Shown in pieces: positions 4,385 through 34,360 of a stretch of DNA of 39,076 nucleotides (position 1 is its first letter; every line of letters starts with the position of its first letter). Below the pieces are notes generated by a model that did no database searches, was not told the origin of the DNA, and was given only the letters and a program-made list of their open reading frames with translations. Source of the DNA: Kiritimatiellia bacterium (GTDB taxonomy: Bacteria; Verrucomicrobiota; Kiritimatiellia; RFP12; UBA3636); contig JAFUOX010000029.1 of NCBI GenBank assembly GCA_017481725.1, forward strand, positions 1 through 39,076. The letters run 5' to 3'. The translations under genes were made by a program, and so were the position numbers.

Positions 4385-4926
4385 CGAGCGTGATGCACGA
4401 GATGCGGAGCGTGATGCACGGGACGCCGAAGGGACGCAGAGACGCGGAGGTCGCTGAGGTCGCTGAGACGTGACGCCGAAAAAATACACTAGCGGAATGA
4501 GCTTTGCCTTGGATATTGCTTTATCTTTCAAAGCAATTGGGCAAATCTCATCCACTAGTGTCCTCGCCCAGAATACTATTAAGATGCGGAGGCGATGCAT
4601 TATAATGAATGAAGAATGATGAATGAAGAATTCAGGTAGAGTTGAGTGTTTTTTCTCCATTCTCGCGTCTAATCTCGTTCGTTGCGTCCTCCGCGACGCA
4701 GCGTCCCTTTTTCGCACTTCTAGCCACCACATACATAAGCTCCGCGTCTTTGCCTTCTCGTGGTCGTACACACTAGCGCTTGGAAATTGCCTTTGCGACA
4801 ACAGGAGCAAAACTAGGCAACGACAAGCGGTAGTGTTATCATCGATACCACCATACAAGCCACCACACAAGCCTCTGCGTCCTCTGCGTCTCTGCGTCCC
4901 TTTTTCGCACTTCTAGCCACCACGTA
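4385..4926 (-). repeat. Dispersed composite repeat, copy 1 (full length), filling a gene-free stretch
   Basis: No gene is supported between 4178 and 4926. The stretch holds a GC-rich repeat unlike the AT-rich flanks. It is bounded by GGGACGCAGAGACGC (from 4431) and its exact reverse complement ending at 4898. Inside are palindrome A (4486-4561, arms ACACTAG...CTAGTGT with TGAG, TTTGCC and ATTGCTTT pairings), a short GAATGAA-type heptamer run near 4600-4630, and palindrome B (4770-4836, ACACTAGCGCTTG / CAAGCGGTAGTGT). Left of the inverted end, GTGATGCACG-type motifs occur twice (about 4390 and 4411). The right end runs into the stop codon of the glycosidase gene. Open frames across this block are low-complexity artefacts. 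Confidence 0.85.
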
Positions 4927-6389: not shown

Positions 6390-8006
6390 TCACTTTGTTG
6401 TAGAACCGTACCAGCCCATAATTTGGAGGCGAGGCAGCTCGTATGAGAGCTGACAAAGTGCACAAATTGCTGCACTATCTAATGCTGGTGCATCAATATC
6501 AACAAAGAATGCATATTCCCAAGGCTTATCAGGAACGGGTTGCGAGCAAATTGATGCAAGGTTCAAGCCTTTATCTGTGAAGACATCAAGTGTTGAGGAC
6601 AATGAACCATGCCTATGTGGTAGTTGCATGATAATGCTAACGCGAGAAGCATCAGGGGTGACAATTAGTTCGCGTGTAACCACAATAAAGCGTGTTTGAT
6701 TACATGTGGTATTGCATGCATTCTCCTCAAGTATCACAAGTCCAGCTTGCTCGGCTGCACTTCTTGAGCAAATTGCTGCGATGGACACATCTCCCTTATC
6801 CAAAATATATTTTGGAGCGTAGGCTGTATTTTCAATACTCTCTTGCACCCAACCACACGCATTTATCTTGTTGGAGCATTGGCTTAGTGCTTGAGGATGG
6901 CTTACCACACATTTTATATCTGCTAAGGTTGCACCAGGAAGAGCTGCCACGCAATGCTCAACTGGAATATCAGCATAGCGAGCAATAAATAGCTTCTGCT
7001 GTAATAACTGATAAACGGTATCTACAGGACCACCTGTTGTATTAGCCAAAGGTAGCACCACTGCATCCACCTTTTGCTCTGTTAGTGACTTACAAGCATC
7101 TGCGAATGACCATGCTGGCTCTAAGGCTGCATCTGGGAAAAATGTGCGGGCAGCCTTTTCTGAATATGACCCTACCTTGCCACCATACGCAACTCGCCTT
7201 ACATTCTCCAATGAACCAGCGGCAACTGATGGAAGAATTGCTGTTGCATTTTGATTTTGTCGTTGAGATGAAAGCATATCGTATTGGCGCTCACGGGAAA
7301 CTCGCATAATTGTGCGCAAAAAGGACTCAACGGCATCCCCATCCTGAGTGCTGACCTTGCCACGAGCATTTGAAATAACAACATTTTCTCTGGCAGCATC
7401 GTAGATTGCGCCACCGCTCTCCCCTTTTGCCTTTGCCACACGCTCTGACACTCGAAGGCGCTTTGCAAATAAATCAATCAGCTGTGCATCAATATCATTG
7501 ATGTCGCGACGACACTGCTGAAGAGAATCATTTTTTGATTCTGTCTCAGCTGGTTTTGTCACTGGTGTTTTTTTTAGGATAAAATCATTTACTAGCTGCT
7601 CCAAGCCCATTGTGTAGCTTTTAATTCCAAAGCCAGCGATTTGCCCAACGCACACAGCCCTAATTACTGATGTATGGCGGAAGCTCTCACGCTCGTGGAT
7701 ATTGGAGATATGCACCTCCATTACAGGAAGTCCTGTAACATCAATCGCATCACGTATTGCATAGCTATAGTGAGTGAATGCACCTGCATTTATGACAATG
7801 CCTGCTGCGGTCTCGCGTGCTTCATGGAGCTTTTGAACAATTTCGCCCTCATGGTTTGATTGGAAGCACTCTGCCTCAAAGCCTAGCTCAGCAGCGCGTT
7901 CCTTAAAAAGCTTCTCAACATCAGCAAGAGTAAAGCTACCATATTGCTTTGGGTCGCGCTTGCCGAGCATATTTAGGTTTGGACCATTTACCAATAATAT
8001 TTTCAT
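6390..8006 (-). CDS. Trifunctional fusion: type II 3-dehydroquinate dehydratase - chorismate mutase - prephenate dehydratase (ACT)
   Basis: One 538-residue frame joins three enzymes. Residues 1-145 are a type II dehydroquinase (AroQ): NGPNLNMLGKRDPKQYG with R17 and Y22, INAGAFTHYS with N73, and EVHISNIHERESFRH. After a linker (about 146-158), residues 160-245 form an all-helical AroQ-class chorismate mutase (R-R-D-I-N-D-I-D, K-A-K-G, R-E-N). Residues 268-450 are prephenate dehydratase: VAYGGKVGSYSEKAA, PLANTTGGPVDTVY and the catalytic TRF at 438-440. Residues about 455-535 are an ACT domain. It would catalyse dehydroquinate to dehydroshikimate, chorismate to prephenate and prephenate to phenylpyruvate. 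The usual ACT motifs GALxxxL and ESRP are here GSLSSTL and CSQP, so Phe feedback may be altered. The chorismate mutase-dehydratase pairing is standard; the N-terminal dehydroquinase is not. It lies 22 nt after aroC. Confidence 0.93.
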   Translation of the reverse strand: MKILLVNGPNLNMLGKRDPKQYGSFTLADVEKLFKERAAELGFEAECFQSNHEGEIVQKLHEARETAAGIVINAGAFTHYSYAIRDAIDVTGLPVMEVHISNIHERESFRHTSVIRAVCVGQIAGFGIKSYTMGLEQLVNDFILKKTPVTKPAETESKNDSLQQCRRDINDIDAQLIDLFAKRLRVSERVAKAKGESGGAIYDAARENVVISNARGKVSTQDGDAVESFLRTIMRVSRERQYDMLSSQRQNQNATAILPSVAAGSLENVRRVAYGGKVGSYSEKAARTFFPDAALEPAWSFADACKSLTEQKVDAVVLPLANTTGGPVDTVYQLLQQKLFIARYADIPVEHCVAALPGATLADIKCVVSHPQALSQCSNKINACGWVQESIENTAYAPKYILDKGDVSIAAICSRSAAEQAGLVILEENACNTTCNQTRFIVVTRELIVTPDASRVSIIMQLPHRHGSLSSTLDVFTDKGLNLASICSQPVPDKPWEYAFFVDIDAPALDSAAICALCQLSYELPRLQIMGWYGSTTK

Positions 8007-8028: not shown

Positions 8029-9108
8029 TCATAAGCCTTTTGATGACTGCTCTAATAAATCAAGCAGAACTATTGCCATTGCACTTTCAACGACTGGCAC
8101 AGCACGTGGCACAATGCATGGGTCGTGGCGACCTGTAATCTCAAGTTCAACATTCTCCTTTGTTTTGAGATTTACGGTTTCTTGTTTTGAATAGATTGAA
8201 GGCGTTGGTTTGAATGCACAGCGCATCACTATTGGCATTCCATTTGTAATGCCTCCCTCAATGCCTCCTGCATTATTTGTCCTATGGGTTAGTTTGCCAT
8301 TAACAAAAATTGGAGAATCATTATTTTCTGAGCCACAAGACTCTGCCACAGCAAAGCCCTTTCCAAATTCCACTCCCTTTACAGCGGGTATTGCAAACAT
8401 CATCTGAGCCAAGCAGCCCTCAACTGTATCAAAGAATGGGCTACCAATTCCAACTGGCATTCCTGTTGCTACACACTCGATAATGCCACCTACGGAATCA
8501 CCGTGAGCATGTGCCTCAGCAATTTTCTTCTGCATTTCATCGCCTTGGACATCATCAACAACTGGGAAAGACTTATCTGCAACAGAAAATGGATACATTG
8601 CATCTCCTACAAATGCGTCCTTTACTCCAGCAATCTCAACAATGCGAGCATGCACGCGAATACCACGTGCAGCAAGAGCTTGCAAGCACACTGCACCAGC
8701 AAACGTCAAAGGAGCCGTAATGCGTCCGGAAAAATGCCCACCGCCACGTGGGTCATTATAGCCTTCGTAACGAACTGCTCCTGTATAATCTGCATGACCA
8801 GGTCGAGGAGTTTCCACAAACTGGCAATAATCCCCTGAACGCGTATTTGTGTTGCGTATAACAGCGGCAAGAGGTGTACCAGTTGTTTTTCCATTATATA
8901 CACCAGAAAGGATTTCTGGCACATCTGGCTCTTTACGGGCTGTTGCCCATGGTGCAGAGCCTGGTGCGCGGCGCTGCAGGTGCTTTGCGATTTGCTCCAT
9001 ATCAAGAGCAATTCCTGCTGGCAAGCCATCGATCACAACACCTATGCCATCGCCATGGGATTCACCGAATAGAGAAACCCTTACGTTCTTTCCATAAATT
9101 GAACTCAT
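8029..9108 (-). CDS. aroC: Chorismate synthase
   Basis: AroC removes phosphate from EPSP to give chorismate, using reduced FMN as cofactor, in the cytoplasm. The 359-residue length is normal. Signature stretches are present: FGESHGDGIG near the N-terminus, RRAPGSAPWATARKEPD, the FMN-binding PRPGHADYTGAVRYEGYND and RGGGHFSGRITA segments, and a C-terminal R-x-D-P-C-I-V-P-R-A-V-P motif. Its ATG overlaps the TGA of aroA (ATGA), so the two are translationally coupled. The trifunctional fusion follows 22 nt later. Confidence 0.97.
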   Translation of the reverse strand: MSSIYGKNVRVSLFGESHGDGIGVVIDGLPAGIALDMEQIAKHLQRRAPGSAPWATARKEPDVPEILSGVYNGKTTGTPLAAVIRNTNTRSGDYCQFVETPRPGHADYTGAVRYEGYNDPRGGGHFSGRITAPLTFAGAVCLQALAARGIRVHARIVEIAGVKDAFVGDAMYPFSVADKSFPVVDDVQGDEMQKKIAEAHAHGDSVGGIIECVATGMPVGIGSPFFDTVEGCLAQMMFAIPAVKGVEFGKGFAVAESCGSENNDSPIFVNGKLTHRTNNAGGIEGGITNGMPIVMRCAFKPTPSIYSKQETVNLKTKENVELEITGRHDPCIVPRAVPVVESAMAIVLLDLLEQSSKGL

Positions 9109-10283
9109 TGAAGCATTCCTCCAAAGGTTGCATAATCCTCAAAGAAATTTGGATAAGATTTATTTACAGCAAATTCATCTGTCAAAACAACCTCATTTGC
9201 AGCACGTGTAGCAAGAATTGCAGCAGTCATCACAATACGGTGATCATTTGCACTCTGCACCTTGCCACGAGGGGTAAGTGTGGTATTCATACCAGTGCCG
9301 TAAATAATGATTGAATCATCTGTGCAATCAACCTCAACGCTAAAGGCACTTAGCATATTGCAAACGCTTTCAATTCTATCGCTTTCCTTCAAACGCAAGC
9401 GCCCCACATTCTCCAAATATGTATCTCCATTTCTAAATACAGCAGCAGCTGCAAGTGCTGGAACAATATCTGGAATATCCTTTGCATCAATGTGGCGTTC
9501 CCCATCACCCCTAAAAGCTTGGTCAAGAATTACACCAAAGACGGCATCGCCTTGATTTGTGTTGCGAGGAAGATTTGAAATTGTAATTTCATTGCCGATA
9601 TAATTTGCAAGCTGCCAGAAGGCTGCCTGTGAGCAATCTGCCTCAGGGATAAACGGCTCTGTGGCAGTGTATCGGCTAGACCCTGCCACATGGAAGCCTG
9701 TCTCTGTGCGTTCAACCTCCACACCAAAGTGACGCATTACATCAAGCGTCAGTTCTACATAGGATGCAGACTCAAGAGGTGAAGTTAGAACAATATCAGA
9801 TGGACCAGACAAAAGAGGCAAAGCAAGAAGCAGTCCTGAAATATATTGAGAGCTAACGTTGCCCGGTATTTTATAGGTACCAGGCTTAAGCTTTCCCTTA
9901 ACAAGCAAAGGCAAATATACGCCCTCTGCATCAGGCATTACAAGCTCGGCTCCATTACCGTCAAAAGCCTGTGCATATTCATCCATTGGGCGCTGAGGAA
10001 GGCGTCCCCTTCCACCAAAGCATACAGGCAAACCAAGAGCTGCGGCAAGCGGCACCATTAGGCGAAGCGTTGTCCCAGATTCGCCGCAATCAAGAAGCGG
10101 CTCACCCTTTGCCAAACCCAGCAAGCAGCGTTGAGTTGCTTTAATATCCTCAGAAGTATTTTTAGGAACAAAGCATTGCCCTCCAGACAATGCAGAGCAA
10201 ATAAGTCCGCGATGAAGAAGGCTCTTTGATGGAGGAACAATTACGGTACCTGAAAGCTTTGTTGGTAAAATGTGTAATGCCAT
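9105..10283 (-). CDS. aroA: EPSP synthase (3-phosphoshikimate 1-carboxyvinyltransferase)
   Basis: AroA transfers the enolpyruvyl group of PEP to shikimate-3-phosphate. Substrate-binding motifs visible are PPSKSLLHR (17-25), GESGTTLRL, R-P-M-D, DCSQAAFWQ, DIPDIVPALA with the catalytic Asp, and RLKESDRI. At 392 residues it is shorter than the roughly 430 of enteric AroA. The loop reads ESGTTLRL rather than the class I NAGTAMRP, so it resembles class II enzymes; no statement on glyphosate sensitivity can be made from this alone. The AGGA site is well placed before the ATG. It sits 22 nt after aroB and its stop overlaps the aroC start. Confidence 0.95.
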   Translation of the reverse strand: MALHILPTKLSGTVIVPPSKSLLHRGLICSALSGGQCFVPKNTSEDIKATQRCLLGLAKGEPLLDCGESGTTLRLMVPLAAALGLPVCFGGRGRLPQRPMDEYAQAFDGNGAELVMPDAEGVYLPLLVKGKLKPGTYKIPGNVSSQYISGLLLALPLLSGPSDIVLTSPLESASYVELTLDVMRHFGVEVERTETGFHVAGSSRYTATEPFIPEADCSQAAFWQLANYIGNEITISNLPRNTNQGDAVFGVILDQAFRGDGERHIDAKDIPDIVPALAAAAVFRNGDTYLENVGRLRLKESDRIESVCNMLSAFSVEVDCTDDSIIIYGTGMNTTLTPRGKVQSANDHRIVMTAAILATRAANEVVLTDEFAVNKSYPNFFEDYATFGGMLQ

Positions 10284-10305: not shown

Positions 10306-11358
10306 TTAAACTAAAATTGTTGATAGCTCACTAATAAGTGTTATAGGCTCTATTGGATATAATACACCCTTTCCTATATTCTCTAAAAGCACAAAATGCA
10401 ATTTATTTGCCAAATTCTTTTTATCTGAGCAAATTGCCTCTGCAAGCTCCTCAGCAGAAAAAGCTGTGGAAACAGGCAAACCATAGCGCTTCAGCACACC
10501 AACAAGCCTATCAGGAATTGACGCTGGGGTTACCCCTAGACTGACACCAAACCTTGCTGCAACAACCATGCCGATTGCAACAGCCTCGCCATGAGAGATT
10601 CCGCCAAAGCCCATTTTCTTTTCGATGGCGTGACCAACTGTATGGCCAAAGTTTAAGAGCATTCGCTCGCCTAGATCAAACTCATCGCGCTCAACAAAAC
10701 CAGCCTTAATAGCAATAGACTGTGCCACAAAATCCTCTGCACTGACGCTGCCACACTCCAAGCCACGGAAAAGCTCTGCATCATTTATGCAGCCATATTT
10801 AATAACTTCAGCCATACCCTCAACATAGCGGTTTTGTGGCAGGGTCTCAAGCATATTTGAGTCTGTAACAACGGCGATAGGCTGATGGAATGCGCCGGCA
10901 AGATTTTTTCCAAAAGGTAAATCAATGCCTGTTTTCCCGCCAATAGAAGAGTCAACCATAGCAAGGAGCGAGGTTGGCACTTGAATTATTGGGCAACCGC
11001 GCAAATAGGTGGCTGCGGCAAAGCCAGCCAAATCGCCTACCACGCCACCACCTAATGCAATAATCACATCGTGGCGCGTGATTCCAAGCTTATTAAATTC
11101 ACTCCAGAGCTCTATCAGCTTATCTGGTTGCTTTGATGCCTCGCCTGCAGGAACAACAATACCACCACAGGAAAAGCCAGATATAGAGAGTAGCTCTTTT
11201 ACATGCTCTAGGTAAAGAGGAGCAACATTGCTATCAGAAACAATTGCTGCACGACGCCCCTTTACAAGCTCAGCAGCAAGCTCACCTAGTTTTTCAACCG
11301 CCCCCGCTTCCGCCAAAATTTGTGTAACCCTATTAGCTGTCTTAAGATTTATTTTCAT
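10306..11358 (-). CDS. aroB: 3-dehydroquinate synthase
   Basis: AroB cyclises DAHP to 3-dehydroquinate, needing NAD+ and a divalent metal. Motifs: PAGEASK near residue 75, GGGVVGDLAGFAAATYLRG, QVPTSLLAMVDSSIGGKTG, GMAEVIKYG, the metal-binding LNFGHTVGHAIE and SHGEAVAIGM. Length (350) is typical. It is the first gene after the gap that contains repeat copy 2, so it either relies on read-through from aroF or has its own promoter in the AT-rich 11360-11460 stretch; no convincing -35/-10 pair stood out there. Confidence 0.96.
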   Translation of the reverse strand: MKINLKTANRVTQILAEAGAVEKLGELAAELVKGRRAAIVSDSNVAPLYLEHVKELLSISGFSCGGIVVPAGEASKQPDKLIELWSEFNKLGITRHDVIIALGGGVVGDLAGFAAATYLRGCPIIQVPTSLLAMVDSSIGGKTGIDLPFGKNLAGAFHQPIAVVTDSNMLETLPQNRYVEGMAEVIKYGCINDAELFRGLECGSVSAEDFVAQSIAIKAGFVERDEFDLGERMLLNFGHTVGHAIEKKMGFGGISHGEAVAIGMVVAARFGVSLGVTPASIPDRLVGVLKRYGLPVSTAFSAEELAEAICSDKKNLANKLHFVLLENIGKGVLYPIEPITLISELSTILV

Positions 11359-11719: not shown

Positions 11720-12736
11720 CTAGATTTCTCTGCCACAAGCTTGAGCGATAACAGAGAGCTTTTTCATCAAAGCTGTGAATGCATCAGGTGTTAGGCTCTG
11801 AGGCCCATCGGAAAGAGCAAGCTTTGGATTCTGATGGACCTCAATCTCCAAGCCATCTGCTCCAGCAGCGATAGCAGCCATCGCAAGTGGCTCAACAAGG
11901 CTTGCTTGACCTGCTGCGTGTGATGGATCCACAATAACAGGAAGATGTGTCTTTGCCTTCAATACCGGAATTGCACTAATATCTAGTGTATTACGTGTTG
12001 AGGTTTCAAAGGTACGGATACCACGCTCGCAAAGAATAACCTTTGAATTACCCTCTGACATGATGTACTCAGCTGACATTAGTAGCTCATTGATGCTATT
12101 TGAGAAGCCACGCTTCAAAAGCACTGGTCTATCTATGCGGCCAAGCTCCTTCAATAGCTCGAAGTTCTGCATATTGCGTGCACCCACCTGAATAACATCA
12201 GCATAATCCAAGAACAAGTCAAGCTGAGATGGGTTTGTAATTTCTGTCACCACTGGCAAGCCTGTTAGTGAGTGAGCTCTACGCAAGTATAGCAAGCCCT
12301 CTGCACGCAAGCCTTGGAAAGAGTAAGGAGAGGTACGAGGCTTGAAGGCACCACCACGAAGCATTGTTGCTCCAGCCTCGCGCACAATCTGAGCGAGCTC
12401 TGCAATCTGCTCCTCTGATTCAACTGCACAAGGACCCGCTGCAACAACAATCTTCTTCCCACCGATTGCTTCGCGCCCTACCTTGATAATAGTATCATCT
12501 GGGTGGAACTTGCGGTTTGCACGCTTATAAGGCTCCTGCACCTTAACGATTCGCTCAATTTCCTCATGCATTTCAATTTCTTGTGCAGAAATATGTGAAG
12601 TATCGCCGACAAGACCGATAATTGTTGCCTCTGAGCCAATAATTGGGTTTGTTTTTACATTATATTTTGTTGTGAGCCAATCGCATAGGGTATCGATTGC
12701 TTCTCTATTTGTACCTTGCTTTAGTACTAGTATCAT
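11720..12736 (-). CDS. aroF: DAHP synthase (3-deoxy-7-phosphoheptulonate synthase), class I-beta with N-terminal regulatory domain
   Basis: This enzyme condenses PEP and erythrose-4-phosphate, the entry step of the shikimate pathway. Residues 1-70 form a ferredoxin-like domain (MILVLKQGT...), as in Thermotoga-type DAHP synthase where it mediates Tyr/Phe inhibition. The barrel shows VAAGPCAVES, MLRGGAFKPRTSPYSFQG, RNMQNFELLKE, LLKRG, CERGIRTFE and PVIVDPSHAAG. I start at the ATG at 12736, preceded by GAAGGAAA; the longer frame from a TTG at 12769 overlaps the end of the previous gene. This gives 338 residues, the same as the Thermotoga enzyme. It lies 22 nt after the aroE/aroK fusion. Confidence 0.95.
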   Translation of the reverse strand: MILVLKQGTNREAIDTLCDWLTTKYNVKTNPIIGSEATIIGLVGDTSHISAQEIEMHEEIERIVKVQEPYKRANRKFHPDDTIIKVGREAIGGKKIVVAAGPCAVESEEQIAELAQIVREAGATMLRGGAFKPRTSPYSFQGLRAEGLLYLRRAHSLTGLPVVTEITNPSQLDLFLDYADVIQVGARNMQNFELLKELGRIDRPVLLKRGFSNSINELLMSAEYIMSEGNSKVILCERGIRTFETSTRNTLDISAIPVLKAKTHLPVIVDPSHAAGQASLVEPLAMAAIAAGADGLEIEVHQNPKLALSDGPQSLTPDAFTALMKKLSVIAQACGREI

Positions 12737-12758
12737 AATATATTTCCTTCTCTTGTAA

Positions 12759-14108
12759 TTATTTATCAACTAGGCGGGCTAATGCTTTAGCGATGTCCGT
12801 TGACGAATTATTTAAATTTGTTGTTATTTTGAAATCTGCAAATGCTTCATATATAGGCTTACGTGTATTATAAAGAGCTTCAAAGCGAGCTTTATCCTGA
12901 GCGAGTGGTCTATGTGCATCTCCTGCTACACGGCGAGCTGCCTCATCAAACGGTACATCAAGATAAACAACCATAGCTTGTGAGCAATCTCTAACCAGCC
13001 TACGATTTGCCTCCTGAATTGGGAAGCCACCACCCGTAGCAATTACAGCCAATTCACTCGAAGCAAGCACCTCGCGTGCTATAGCTGTTTCTATTGCTCT
13101 AAAGCCAGACTCTCCTTCTGCTGCAAAAATCTCAGGAATTGAGCGTCCCTCACGAGCCTCTATTTCTACATCTAAATCTACAAAGCGTAAACCAAGCATT
13201 GAGGCAAGCTCCTTACCTACACTGCTCTTGCCTGAGCCCATAAAGCCAGTTAGCACGATGTGGCGTCCAAACACATTCCTTTGAGCAGCCTTAATTTGGG
13301 CAAGCACCTTTGCTTCCACCAGAGCAACATCAATAGCTAGCTCCGGATTCCAAATGCGTTGTGCCTCTATAGCTTGACGTACAAGCATTTTCAATCCTGC
13401 ATGTGCCTCTGCCCCGCTATCCTCTGCCTTAATGAGCAGGTTGCTTGGCAATGGGTTATAAATTGGGTCAAACACCACCACGCCCGGGCGAAGCAATTTC
13501 TCTACACCTGCTGGAATTGCATGAGGATGAGGAAACATACCCACAGGCGTACCATTTAAAATAACATCTGCCTCAAACCCGTCAGGTGGCAATTCCCCGC
13601 AATACTTTGGCATTGCAATTTCTGCCACACTTCCACCAACTGCCTCTACAACCGCAGAAATCATTTCTTTTGCTGTTGCCCCATTGCGTGCGGCAACAAC
13701 CACCTCTATAGCACCACCAGCAAGAGCTGCTGCAAGCATCATACGGCAGGTGCCTCCGCTTCCAAGCACAAGCACACGCTTCCCTGTAAACGCAATTCCG
13801 TATGAACCAAAGCCTAAAATATCTGTGTTATACCCAACGCCCTTGTAAACTGTATTTACGCAGGTGCAGAATTTTGCGCTATCAGAAACACAATCCAGAA
13901 ATGGAACTATTGCATTTTTATGAGGGATTGTGCAATTAAAGCCATCTAGCTTTTTCAATAGCTCAGGAATTTCCTTTGCCATATTTTCAGGAGCAATATC
14001 ATAGAGCTTATATTCTCCATCTAGCCCAATCTCCTGCATTATTGCAGCATGAATTTGAGGAGAAAGGCTATGCCCCAAAGGATGACCAATTAAACCAAAA
14101 TGCTTCAT
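12759..14108 (-). CDS. Bifunctional shikimate dehydrogenase - shikimate kinase fusion
   Basis: Residues 1 to about 265 are AroE, which reduces dehydroshikimate with NADPH: GHPLGHSLSP (8-17), FNCTIPHK with catalytic K64, GYNTD with D96, Rossmann GSGGTCR (117-122) and NGTPVGM. Residues about 278-449 are AroK, which phosphorylates shikimate with ATP: P-loop GFMGSGKS (288-295), FVDLD (D311, D313), FRAIE (R337), TGGG (358-361), HRPL (R400) and RKPIY. Catalytic residues of both halves are intact, so both activities are expected. A short helical linker joins them. The ATG overlaps the TGA of tyrA (ATGA), and aroF follows 22 nt downstream. The order kinase after dehydrogenase puts two consecutive steps in one chain. 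Confidence 0.94.
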   Translation of the reverse strand: MKHFGLIGHPLGHSLSPQIHAAIMQEIGLDGEYKLYDIAPENMAKEIPELLKKLDGFNCTIPHKNAIVPFLDCVSDSAKFCTCVNTVYKGVGYNTDILGFGSYGIAFTGKRVLVLGSGGTCRMMLAAALAGGAIEVVVAARNGATAKEMISAVVEAVGGSVAEIAMPKYCGELPPDGFEADVILNGTPVGMFPHPHAIPAGVEKLLRPGVVVFDPIYNPLPSNLLIKAEDSGAEAHAGLKMLVRQAIEAQRIWNPELAIDVALVEAKVLAQIKAAQRNVFGRHIVLTGFMGSGKSSVGKELASMLGLRFVDLDVEIEAREGRSIPEIFAAEGESGFRAIETAIAREVLASSELAVIATGGGFPIQEANRRLVRDCSQAMVVYLDVPFDEAARRVAGDAHRPLAQDKARFEALYNTRKPIYEAFADFKITTNLNNSSTDIAKALARLVDK

Positions 14109-15007
14109 TTTGCTTCTCCTTCTATATCCAAATGACTCTTTGCACGCAAGCCCTCAGGTATTGACCTACGGAACTCAGCTGCTGTTATGAGGTGAGCCTT
14201 TATTCCCTGAAGCTCACTATGCTTTAGAAGAGCTAAATAATCCTCTAAATGTTTTATATATTCCTCAAGCGAAGGAATTAGCTCACTAGACTCTGAGAAA
14301 ATATCCGTCCATAGGCTTGGTGAGGATGCAGCAATGCGTGTTGTATCCTTAAAGCCACCGCCAATAAGCTGCTTCATAGCAGTATCGTTAGTATTTGCAA
14401 CAATTTCAGAAAGAGCAAACGCTGCCACATGTGGAAGATGAGAAATCATTGCCACACGGCGATCATGCTCCACTGCATCCATAAGAATAGCCTCAGCCCC
14501 AAGCGTGCGAATAAGCTTTGTTAGCATTGCAAGCATATTTCCTGGCACAGCGCAATTCTCAGGAATAGAAAGCACCCAGCGAGCATTCTTGAAAAGCCCC
14601 TCCTCTGCTGAAGAGTAGCCCGAGCCTTCAGAGCCCGCCATTGGGTGTCCACCAACAAAGTTGGTCAATATTGACGCAGCAGCCATTACAGGAGCCTTAA
14701 CAGATGCCACATCTGTGATAATGCCAAACCTCTCTCCATCAATGCGAGAAAGAAGCTCACATACGATGCGAGGTGGAGTGCAAAGAAAAAGCACCTCACA
14801 ATTATGAAAATCAAGTGTGGCAATATCTACACCACGAGTGGCAGCACCCTCGTCAATGGCTGCTTTAACTGCGGCTTGATTAACATCTGCCACTTCAATA
14901 ATTGCTTCAGGGTAAGCACAACGCAATGCCTTAACAAGTGAGCCACCGATAAGACCAAGACCTATAACGCCGAAGCTTGTGAAATTTGATTGATTTTGTG
15001 TAAACAT
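14105..15007 (-). CDS. tyrA: Prephenate dehydrogenase
   Basis: TyrA oxidatively decarboxylates prephenate to 4-hydroxyphenylpyruvate for tyrosine synthesis. The NAD-binding motif GLGLIGGS is at 16-23, TDVASVK follows strand six, the catalytic HPMAGSE is present, and SHLPHVAAFAL carries the second conserved His. At 300 residues it lacks a C-terminal ACT domain. No Shine-Dalgarno lies directly before the ATG; the nearest, AGGAGAAAGGA (15041-15051), is over 30 nt upstream and separated by a 20-nt hairpin. In-frame codons upstream reach a TAA, so an earlier start is excluded. It is the first enzyme gene after the Phe/Tyr-rich leader ORF and overlaps the next gene by ATGA. Confidence 0.93.
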   Translation of the reverse strand: MFTQNQSNFTSFGVIGLGLIGGSLVKALRCAYPEAIIEVADVNQAAVKAAIDEGAATRGVDIATLDFHNCEVLFLCTPPRIVCELLSRIDGERFGIITDVASVKAPVMAAASILTNFVGGHPMAGSEGSGYSSAEEGLFKNARWVLSIPENCAVPGNMLAMLTKLIRTLGAEAILMDAVEHDRRVAMISHLPHVAAFALSEIVANTNDTAMKQLIGGGFKDTTRIAASSPSLWTDIFSESSELIPSLEEYIKHLEDYLALLKHSELQGIKAHLITAAEFRRSIPEGLRAKSHLDIEGEAK

Positions 15008-15015
15008 GACTATGA

Positions 15016-15101
15016 CCGATTATTTTCATAACCGGCTTCGTCCTTTCTCCTAAAATTGTGAATAAAAATGTACCTAACTAGGATTACAGAGTAACGAAGC
15101 C
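15016..15101 (-). promoter_or_regulatory. Overlapping alternative hairpins between leader ORF and tyrA
   Basis: On the minus strand, GGCTTCGT inside the last codons of the leader ORF (15094-15101) can pair with ACGAAGCC (15034-15041); the loop contains the leader stop codon and the AGGAGAAAGGA ribosome-binding-like sequence. The second arm shares bases with another hairpin, CCGGTTAT-GAAA-ATAATCGG (15016-15035), an 8-bp stem with one G-U pair and a GAAA tetraloop. The two cannot form together. Folding of the second would bring the Shine-Dalgarno to about 13 nt from the tyrA ATG. A switch is inferred, not shown. Confidence 0.45.
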
Positions 15102-15299
15102 GTTGCTTGTAAAGTAAAAGTAAAAATAAAAGTAAAAATACTTACTAAATCGATCAAGTCCAAAAAAAGAAACCGCACGGTCAAAGAATGAACGAGCGGT
15201 CTTATTCTCAAGTGTTGAAGCGACAATATTTGCAGAAGTGCTAGATACGTTATCTAGTACTGAAATACTGCTGTTTGTCATAATAATTGCTTCACACAT
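15084..15299 (-). CDS. Putative Phe/Tyr-rich leader peptide of the aromatic operon
   Basis: A 71-codon ORF opens with ATG at 15299, 7 nt after an AGGA site and about 25 nt after the probable transcription start. Residues 1-37 contain no Phe or Tyr. Residues 38-68 contain 11 Phe and 5 Tyr: FF at 38-39, FF at 45-46, F51, ten alternating Tyr-Phe codons at 54-63 and F68. Tyr codons mix TAT and TAC while the Phe codons of the run are all TTT. Classical pheA and related leader peptides are short and rich in the end-product amino acid; this one is longer but sits directly before tyrA in an operon making both Phe and Tyr. No domain or signal peptide is recognised. It could instead be a random frame over a TAAAAG-type microsatellite (about 15113-15140), which would also give alternating codons. 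Confidence 0.55.
   Translation of the reverse strand: MCEAIIMTNSSISVLDNVSSTSANIVASTLENKTARSFFDRAVSFFGLDRFSKYFYFYFYFYFTSNGFVTL
15160..15200 (-). terminator. Intrinsic-terminator-like hairpin within the leader ORF
   Basis: Minus-strand arms ACCGCTCG (15193-15200) and CGTGCGGT (15172-15179) pair with one T-T mismatch and a 13-nt loop, followed by TTCTTTTTTT. The loop encodes the first Phe-Phe pair of the leader peptide. A ribosome delayed there would prevent the stem, giving read-through when charged Phe-tRNA is scarce. As a simple terminator it would be inside a coding frame, which argues for a regulatory role. Confidence 0.5.
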
Positions 15300-15330
15300 A
15301 GAGTTGTCCTATTTGAAATTTGATGTGGTT

Positions 15331-15359
15331 ATTATTGCACAATCAGAAAACGCTTTCAA
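15331..15359 (-). promoter_or_regulatory. Promoter of the aromatic operon
   Basis: TTGAAA (15354-15359) and AATAAT (15331-15336) on the minus strand are spaced by exactly 17 nt, each one base from consensus. Start of transcription would be near 15324, leaving a short leader before the ORF at 15299. Confidence 0.65.
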
Positions 15360-15435
15360 GATTTTTTTTTACGGATACGGAGAAAAAATTGCCAATTCCA
15401 AAATTTCTCATGCAATTTCCTACACTATGCCAGCG

Positions 15436-15843
15436 ATTGATGGAGATGCATTATAATGAATGAAGAATGAAAAATGAAGAATGAAGAATGAAAAATGAAG
15501 AATGAAGAATGAAGAATGAAGAATTCAGGTAGAGTTGAGTGGTTTTTTCTCCATTCTCGCGTCTAATCTCGTCCGCTGCGTCCTCCGCGTCGCAGCGTCC
15601 CTTTTTTTCGCACGTCTTGACACCACGTGCAGAAGCTCTGCGTCTTTGCCTTCTTGTGGGCGAACACACTAGCGCTTGGAAGTTGACTTTGCGACAACAG
15701 GAGCAAAACAAGGCAACGACAAGCGGTAGTGTTATCATCGATACCACCATACAAGCCACCACGCAAGCCTCTGCGACCTCTGCGTCCTCTGCGTCTCTGC
15801 GTCCCTTTTTCGCACTTTTAGCCATCACGTGCATAAGCTATAG
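15436..15843 (-). repeat. Dispersed composite repeat, copy 3 (left part missing)
   Basis: The repeat starts at the GATGCATTATAATGAATG segment and lacks palindrome A and the left inverted end. It has an expanded run of nine 7-nt units (TGAAGAA or TGAAAAA) at 15461-15523, then the TTCAGGTAGAGTTGAGTG and TCTCCATTCTCGCGTC segments shared with copies 1 and 4, palindrome B at 15666-15732, and the GCGTCTCTGCGTCCC end at 15791-15805. It finishes about 10 bp from the stop codon of the recombinase gene. Frames through it on both strands are low-complexity artefacts. Between it and the operon promoter (15360-15435) I see nothing else. Confidence 0.85.
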
Positions 15844-15852
15844 ATACCAAAA

Positions 15853-17028
15853 TTACGTTGTGAGAGGTCTGATTTCCCAATATTTGCTAGCGACATCACG
15901 AGGAACAACACCCATATAATATCGTTCAAGCACAGTTGAAGAATGTCCATGCCCTAAATTCAATGCGGTTGCACTAGCATTGCGGAAAAAGCCAACATGC
16001 ATTGTAGCATAAGTATGCCGCATCACGTTATGATTTGAATCATTTCCCCAGCTAAGCCCTAATGGCTCTAGCACCTGTTTTTTCCATTCTGTCATTCGTG
16101 TAGTAATGATTTTTCCCTGCTTTCCATGTTGAAAATACTTTTTTACCCACGCCAAAGCATTAGGCTCCAATTCTACAATTCTAGGCTTAACTCCTCTTGA
16201 AAACCCCTTTGGTTGTCTCACTCGAATTGTCCCGGCATCTAAATCTATATCCCTCCACTCTAGTCGCAAAATCTCTGCCGAACGAATGCCACAAAAAAAC
16301 CCAAGAACAAAAAACAAAATTCCTCCTGCTTCTGGAGGATTTTCTTCAATTACACGCATAATTTCTGCCACTTTCTCTGGCATAAAATACACAGGCTCTC
16401 TATATGGAACTTGCTTAGGCTTCTGCTGCTTCATAGGGCTTATTTCAAGCATACCTTCTGAAACAAACCAATTAAATATGCTCCTGAGTCTAGAATGGTT
16501 TGAATTATACGTAATTATTGAGGTAAATTGAGAAAGATGCTTTAATATATCATGCTTTGAAATATCATTTAAAAGGATATTCTGTGAAATTGATTTTAAA
16601 AAGCTATTTATTGCACTATTATAGCTCTGGATGCTACGGGGTTGCAAATTAGAAAGGGTCTCAACAAAAAGATTGAGAGCTTTGCCTATCGTTATTTTCT
16701 TATTAAAATTATCCCCTAACCTTTTTGTTCTTTTTATATAATCATAAGCAATTTGTGTTAGAGGAATTTCACCAAATCCGTTTGCAGCAAGGTATTCAAT
16801 GGCATTTGCAGCATCGATTATTTCTTTTCTTTTCAGTATCTGGTGTGCCGGAGAATGTCTACTAAGAGATATGTATTGAAGTGCTTTTTCTTCTACTAAA
16901 AACTTATCCTTGGAGTAAAAACGGATTGGCCGACCTCCTACAGTGCCACAATAGGCACACCAATCTACATAATTGTGCCCAGAAAAGATTCTTTCTCGTT
17001 TGCGGATAACAGGTATCTCATAAAGCAT
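15853..17028 (-). CDS. Tyrosine recombinase / integrase, solitary
   Basis: A 391-residue phage-integrase-family protein. The N-terminal 100 residues carry a CAYC pair (24-27); 105-200 is a SAM-like core-binding domain; 215-375 is the catalytic domain with GIRSAEILRLEW (R249), a beta-hairpin Lys (K274), N-V-M-R-H-T (R337, H338), LGHGH (H360) and the nucleophile Tyr370 or 371 in ERYYMG. At the usual HxxR His position there is Asn334, with a His one residue earlier; N-x-x-R variants occur in some PVC-type integrases. No excisionase, phage or cargo gene is nearby. It begins 11 nt after the antiporter stop without a good ribosome-binding site, so it may be read from the uppS transcript. It borders repeat copy 3, but a functional link is only a guess. 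Confidence 0.85.
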   Translation of the reverse strand: MLYEIPVIRKRERIFSGHNYVDWCAYCGTVGGRPIRFYSKDKFLVEEKALQYISLSRHSPAHQILKRKEIIDAANAIEYLAANGFGEIPLTQIAYDYIKRTKRLGDNFNKKITIGKALNLFVETLSNLQPRSIQSYNSAINSFLKSISQNILLNDISKHDILKHLSQFTSIITYNSNHSRLRSIFNWFVSEGMLEISPMKQQKPKQVPYREPVYFMPEKVAEIMRVIEENPPEAGGILFFVLGFFCGIRSAEILRLEWRDIDLDAGTIRVRQPKGFSRGVKPRIVELEPNALAWVKKYFQHGKQGKIITTRMTEWKKQVLEPLGLSWGNDSNHNVMRHTYATMHVGFFRNASATALNLGHGHSSTVLERYYMGVVPRDVASKYWEIRPLTT

Positions 17029-33850: not shown

Positions 33851-34360
33851 GTGTGCACGTGACGCCAATGGGACGCAGAGACGCAAAGGACGCAGAGGTC
33901 GCAGAGCCGTGACGCCGAAAAAACACTAGCGGAATGAGCTTTGCCTTGGATATTGCTTTATCCTTCGAAGCAATTTGGCAAAACTCATCCACTAGTGTCC
34001 TCGCCCAGAAGACTATTAAGATACGGAGGCGATGCATTATAATAAATGAAGAATGAAAAATGAAGAATTCAGGTAGAGTTAATTGGTTTTTTCTCCATTC
34101 TCGCGTCTAATCGTCTTATTGTCCGTTCAACGTCTAACGTCCCACTTCGCACTTCTAGCCATCACGTGCAGATGCTCCGCGTCTTTGCATTCTTGTGGGC
34201 GAACACACTAGCGCTTGGAAGTTGCCTTTGCGATAACAGGAGCAAAACTAGGCAACGACAAGCGGTAGTGTTATTATCGATACCACCATACAAGCCACCA
34301 CGCAAGCCCTGCGTCCTCCGCGTCCTCTGCGTCTCTGCGTCCCTTTTTCGCACTTGTTGC
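33851..34360 (-). repeat. Dispersed composite repeat, copy 4 (full length)
   Basis: The stretch 33613-34514 has no supported gene. Most of it is a full repeat: inverted ends GGGACGCAGAGACGC (33869-33883) and GCGTCTCTGCGTCCC (ending 34343), palindrome A at 33923-33998, a short heptamer run near 34045-34065, and palindrome B at 34205-34271. Palindromes have the same lengths as in copy 1 (76 and 67 nt). Left of it (33760-33850) and right of it (34355-34405) are CTCCGTGT / ACACGGA-type runs. The remainder to 34514 is AT-rich with nothing recognised. Confidence 0.85.

Follow-up and report, generated by a model that had tools for sequence, protein, structure and literature searches.

Leader-peptide attenuation is a textbook form of control for the trp, phe and his operons, and the pheL and trpL leaders of E. 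coli are about 14-15 codons long. The best-documented examples come from Proteobacteria, and cases are also known in Actinobacteria and Firmicutes (PMC2965389, PMC1262725). Two described systems involve Phe or Tyr codons upstream of aroF: the AroR leader of C. glutamicum, which carries Phe-Tyr-Phe, controls aroF and, in the account given by a review, responds to Phe and not to Tyr (Neshat et al. 2014, as reviewed in PMC11802643), and the uORFC-13-1 motif of Acholeplasma consists of an ORF in which a U-run codes for Phe, with a terminator after it (PMC8632094). A literature search, with few subscription papers in reach, returned no report of leader-peptide attenuation in Verrucomicrobiota. Here we describe a locus of this phylum in which the region preceding tyrA is very probably a ribosome-mediated attenuator that senses charged tRNA-Phe and tRNA-Tyr for the tyrA-aroEK-aroF-aroB-aroA-aroC-aroQ/pheA operon.

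Operon and leader organization

We analyzed a window of 39,076 nucleotides (contig JAFUOX010000029.1 of a Kiritimatiellia bacterium), in which the operon and its leader are encoded on the minus strand. The first gene is tyrA (prephenate dehydrogenase, 14105..15007), followed by an aroE-aroK fusion (shikimate dehydrogenase and shikimate kinase, 12759..14108), aroF (DAHP synthase, 11720..12769), aroB (3-dehydroquinate synthase, 10306..11358), aroA (EPSP synthase, 9105..10283), aroC (chorismate synthase, 8029..9108) and a fusion of aroQ (dehydroquinase II), chorismate mutase and prephenate dehydratase (pheA) (6390..8006). These genes provide a nearly complete route to Phe and Tyr, and the amino acids that the leader is predicted to sense are the products of the genes downstream. 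The gene order is kept in two other genomes of the genus, over the whole operon in G002 and, on the shorter G001 contig, from tyrA into aroA. Searches of three genomes of the genus (G000, G001 and G002, 78-88% complete) gave no hit for trpE/pabB-type genes and only weak, paralogue-like matches for trpB, with no true trpB among them, from which the genus appears to be a probable tryptophan auxotroph. The main fate of chorismate in this genus is therefore probably Phe and Tyr synthesis, which fits a leader that has no Trp codons.

The promoter (15331..15359, minus strand) comprises a -35 box TTGAAA (15359-15354), a 17-nt spacer and an extended -10 element TGTGCAATAAT ending at 15331; TGTGC precedes the -10 box, the TTGAAA-N17-AATAAT arrangement gives 10/12 matches, and the counterpart in the alignment with G001 and G002 is TTGAAT...TGTGCAATAAT. 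Between this promoter and the operon we predict a short ORF with a start codon and a ribosome-binding site, a Shine-Dalgarno-like AGGA (15307..15310, minus strand) located 7 nt before the ATG, where the block AAATAGGAC is conserved. The ORF (15084..15299, minus strand) has 71 codons and reads MCEAII...RSFFDRAVSFFGLDRFSKYFYFYFYFYFTSNGFVTL up to its stop codon, which is separated from the tyrA start (15007) by a 76-nt gap. It contains 16 Phe/Tyr codons (F38, F39, F45, F46, F51, Y54-F63 and F68), all within its last 34 codons, including an uninterrupted run of ten alternating Tyr-Phe codons (codons 54-63, 15111..15140, minus strand) as the putative sensing run. The promoter, the ORF and the composition of its aromatic block are thus as the preliminary description had them, the promoter being conserved in both same-genus genomes. 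Searching the Rfam families (amino-acid leaders, T-box, riboswitches) yielded no match at or above the gathering threshold in the window and just two chance-level matches at 14960-15400 (E 2.7 and 3), and an Rfam riboswitch, T-box or known leader was on this basis rejected as the identity of this region.

Several other elements were recorded around the leader. A tyrosine recombinase gene (phage integrase family, 15853-17028, minus strand) is located just upstream of the leader region, and 7-bp TTCATTC/GAATGAA microsatellites occur at 15458-15524, 4605-4631 and 34045-34068, one of them directly upstream of the leader promoter. Intergenic 8-9-bp repeats of the CTCTGCGT type, possibly parts of one dispersed element, are found at 4872-4899, 15768-15804, 33871-33906 and 34309-34342.

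Alternative structures between the leader ORF and tyrA

The preliminary description had proposed that the last leader codons can pair with a segment otherwise engaged in a hairpin before tyrA, and this was confirmed. The 5' strand of the antiterminator (segment 2, CGGCTTCGT, 15094..15102, minus strand) coincides with leader codons 66-69, its 3' strand (segment 3, ACGAAGCCG) lies at 15033..15041 on the same strand, and a 3:4 hairpin, CCGGTTAT-GAAA-ATAATCGG, directly precedes tyrA (15016..15035, minus strand). The 3' part of ACGAAGCCG doubles as the start of the 5' arm of the hairpin 15035-15016, so that the two stems are mutually exclusive. The energy of the antiterminator is approximately -18.5 kcal/mol in the window and -19 kcal/mol in G001 and G002. 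In these two genomes the pre-tyrA hairpin is CCGGTTATC-TCAA-GATAATCGG-TTTTTTTT, immediately followed by the tyrA ATG, its stem and U8 forming an intrinsic terminator. The window retains the stem but has TCATAGTC (15015-15008) in place of the U-tract.

As a control, we performed 5000 dinucleotide shuffles of the ORF tail together with the post-ORF stretch. The tail duplex was matched in strength by 25 of the 5000 window shuffles, none of which (0/5000) had both the duplex and the downstream fold as strong, and the strength of the G002 tail duplex was likewise reached in 0/5000 shuffles; the fold of the whole leader has a z of -4.15. We then folded the leader while masking a ribosome footprint stepwise along its ORF. 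The antiterminator had a probability of 0.80-0.98 with the A site at codons 38-62 and of 0.60 at codon 63, and from codon 66 to the stop codon it fell to 0.00 while the pre-tyrA hairpin reached 1.00. The flip from antiterminator to hairpin occurs just past codon 63, which places the Tyr-Phe sensing run just upstream of the switching point. In this model the antiterminator and the terminator or sequestering stem are mutually exclusive structures switched by ribosome position; for G002 the same thermodynamic treatment allows the upper terminator stem to coexist with the antiterminator.

An additional pairing was noted between GATCGATT (codons 49-51, 15160-15150) and the 3' arm of the hairpin (15022-15014), a possible third alternative structure. 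Its pairs are kept in the relatives, with one both-sided change, and with effectively two independent sequences behind this comparison we do not claim the long-range pairing as part of the switch.

Conservation within the genus

The same-genus comparison covered three genomes (that of the window, G001 and G002), two of which are nearly identical; TyrA of the window is 61% identical to that of G001/G002. The conserved block extends from the -35 box into tyrA and includes the whole leader, and the DNA upstream of the -35 box is unrelated, with a tRNA-like stretch in G002 and the 7-bp microsatellite in the window. Aligning the leader ORFs of the window and its relatives required two gaps, of one and two codons, both in frame. 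Both species have an aromatic residue at 14 of the 16 aligned aromatic columns, among which Tyr/Phe swaps and synonymous TTT/TTC changes occur. Changes at the first, second and third codon positions number 15/10/9 in the first half of the ORF and 3/6/7 in the second; the former distribution indicates that the N-terminal half is unconstrained as a protein, as expected where translation matters more than its product.

With so few sequences, support from covariation is minimal: a single both-sided change was found, in the hairpin P1, while the antiterminator and the terminator core are both invariant. P1 is located early in the ORF (15238..15260, minus strand), where CTAGAT/ATCTAG in the window corresponds to CCAGAT/ATCTGG in the relatives through one compensatory pair, T-A to C-G, and is possibly a pause hairpin. 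Of the alignment in relatives suggested earlier as a check, the part concerning aromatic codons and pre-tyrA stems was borne out, but compensatory changes proved scarce.

Proposed mechanism and alternative explanations

From these features we infer ribosome stalling, a termination or translational block, and a response to Phe and Tyr. Under shortage of either amino acid, the ribosome would stall in the aromatic codons 38-63 and leave the ORF end CGGCTTCGT free to pair with ACGAAGCCG, a pairing that would remove the base of the pre-tyrA hairpin and allow expression of the operon. When both are plentiful, a ribosome at the stop codon would cover CGGCTTCGT and the pre-tyrA hairpin would form. In the sister species, where the hairpin ends in U8 immediately ahead of the tyrA start, transcription should stop there; in the species of the window, where the U-tract is gone, the hairpin is probably either a weakened terminator or a structure that acts at the ribosome-binding region of tyrA. 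The attenuator put forward in the preliminary description keeps its promoter, ORF, aromatic block, pairing and hairpin, all retained in both same-genus genomes, but not its terminator site, and the window has no U-tract after the pre-tyrA hairpin.

That site had been placed on a terminator-like stem with a U-tract over the first Phe codons. The structure is present as hairpin P2 (15162..15202, minus strand; stem 15202-15169, followed by the T-run TTTCTTTTTTT), and at -14.7 kcal/mol it is the sole stem with a T-run in the leader of the window. This, the retention of most of its pairs in the relatives and the rarity of comparable sites (1 of 132 T-rich-flanked CDS windows) favor a scheme with two checkpoints, in which P2 and its T-run would end transcription if the leader is left untranslated and the pre-tyrA hairpin would sense Phe and Tyr. 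The T-run is however forced by Phe codons, an equal stability was reached by 173 of 3000 synonymous recodings (5.8%), and P2 of the relatives has lost two base pairs and reaches just -8.5 to -10.2 kcal/mol, 4-6 kcal/mol weaker than in the window. The recoding control and the weaker fold in relatives argue against P2 as the main switch, make the two-checkpoint scheme unlikely and suggest, from the sequence comparison, that the role of regulated terminator falls to the pre-tyrA hairpin and not to the hairpin inside the ORF. We consider less probable again the fullest version of the scheme, a dual attenuator combining a translation-requiring in-ORF terminator with a Phe/Tyr sensor whose output shifted from termination in the sister species to translational control in the window species, as part of a previously undescribed set of aromatic leaders spanning Verrucomicrobiota. 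A serious contender, falling only somewhat short of probable, is that the leader and the stall are real and the read-out is translational, the pre-tyrA hairpin hiding the start region with no transcription termination at that point. The retention of the stem with TCATAGTC replacing the U-tract agrees with this, as does a Shine-Dalgarno AAGGGA carried by the 3' arm of the corresponding hairpin in a genome of the same family (G006). The tyrA start of the window, close to which we found no Shine-Dalgarno, is also computed to be somewhat less accessible when the ribosome is at the stop codon; this difference (0.62 vs 0.46 unpaired between states) favors the translational reading slightly and is too small to decide by itself. 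Against it stand the U8 directly before tyrA in both sister species and the fact that such gating would directly control tyrA only, reaching the distal genes via coupling or polarity.

Two further readings concern the ORF itself. The Tyr-Phe run could be no more than a TTTTAC microsatellite in an incidental ORF: a tandem repeat finder calls a period of 6/12 at 15111-15140, and other microsatellites are found nearby in the genome. In the relatives, however, the run is imperfect and still aromatic despite Tyr/Phe swaps and synonymous change, it differs in length by exactly two codons, and conservation extends to the promoter, stems and terminator that flank it, so that the free variation in length and frame named in the preliminary description as evidence against an attenuator was not seen. 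(TTYTAY)3 occurs at one other site of the genome only, and this second FYFYFY site (G000 C40), considered as another leader, was rejected as it looks antisense to a coding gene. The aromatic-preserving, imperfect run and the in-frame indels largely refute the microsatellite reading, which we regard as extremely improbable. Only marginally less remote is a functional small protein (basic, aromatic and possibly membrane-active) located by chance before the operon. In its favor, a leader of 71 codons would be long and the C-terminal half is conserved (RSFFxRAVSFFG...SGFVxL); however, the N-terminal half lacks protein-like constraint, the ORF has no Pfam match, the C-terminal codons also serve as the antiterminator strand, and the equivalents in other families, mostly 16-27 codons long and unrelated in sequence, share aromatic codons alone.

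Aromatic leaders in the family, order and phylum

Within the family, the leader of G006 is Phe-rich and 65 codons long (NGFYFFSFF) and comes with a 12-bp antiterminator and a pre-tyrA hairpin; that of G004 is Tyr-rich (CYYRGYYAY), and a U-tailed intrinsic terminator precedes its tyrA. No leader stands before tyrA in G005 and G009. Elsewhere in the order, short leaders precede DAHP synthase in other families, for instance MNGKRTYFYFSYFRSPDTRFGSAQ (L227), MNRYFYGFYFYFTGLMGRARLP (L242) and MNNNRYFYFGFFYFAFTERGVG. To assess their frequency, we counted ORFs having 6 or more Phe/Tyr/Trp codons within a stretch of 9 in 67 distinct 250-nt regions sampled upstream of DAHP synthase genes of the order. 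An aromatic leader was found in 26 of the 67 (~40%) vs 0.13 expected from dinucleotide shuffles, a contrast to which we attach no formal probability since related species are not independent, and the same criterion gave 0 on the reverse strand of these regions. Most aroF leaders of the order carry strong terminators and antiterminators. Short leaders rich in Phe/Tyr(/Trp) were listed at DAHP synthase within the order (L207, L212, L216, L222, L224, L227-L230, L232, L234-L236, L240-L242, L245, L249-L251, L253-L255 and L260-L262), and similar ones elsewhere in the phylum (L265, L268, L270, L272, L279 and L284).

Relatives also have leader ORFs with WWW before trpE or an adjacent trp gene (L124, L125, L127, L130, L131, L140, L143 and L147/L158), which suggests Trp leader attenuation at trpE in the lineage of the window. 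As a whole, the leaders suggest that Verrucomicrobiota commonly use ribosome-mediated sensing, with Phe/Tyr as the signal at aroF or tyrA and Trp at trpE. Separately, Phe/Tyr-rich short ORFs such as MFPFSYFAYKPCRFTAF... lie just upstream of tyrA in rumen Clostridiales (L035, L037 and L047) and are possible independent leaders.

Comparison with known systems

Like pheL-pheA and trpL-trpE of E. coli, the leader of the window combines runs of cognate codons with mutually exclusive antiterminator and terminator-type hairpins in a short 5' UTR. Unlike them, it has 71 codons in which Phe and Tyr are mixed, bears no sequence relation to either, holds its antiterminator strand inside the last leader codons, precedes an operon for nearly all of the shikimate, Phe and Tyr pathway, and is devoid of a U-tract. 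The uORFC-13-1 motif, from a different phylum and with a different sequence, is described with at least one Phe codon only and no mention of Tyr. The leaders found at aroF in the same order resemble that of the window (L227 MNGKRTYFYFSYFRSPDTRFGSAQ, L242 MNRYFYGFYFYFTGLMGRARLP) by their alternating Tyr-Phe codons, an antiterminator in the ORF tail and a terminator before the operon, and differ from it in having 16-27 codons as a rule, a position upstream of aroF and U-tracts.

A leader mixing Phe and Tyr is not without precedent: C. glutamicum AroR is known, and such leaders are frequent at aroF in Verrucomicrobiota. What appears to be new here, judging from the sequences, is an unusually long Phe/Tyr leader in a phylum for which we found no earlier report, and what the genus of the window adds to the set is the length of its leader and, possibly, an altered mode of output. 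C. glutamicum aroR shares with it the use of Phe and Tyr codons for control of a DAHP synthase operon, but has far fewer aromatic codons, belongs to Actinobacteria and precedes aroF, not tyrA. The genus of the window would make it possible to test directly whether leaders that mix Tyr and Phe truly sense both amino acids, a response to Phe only being reported for AroR.
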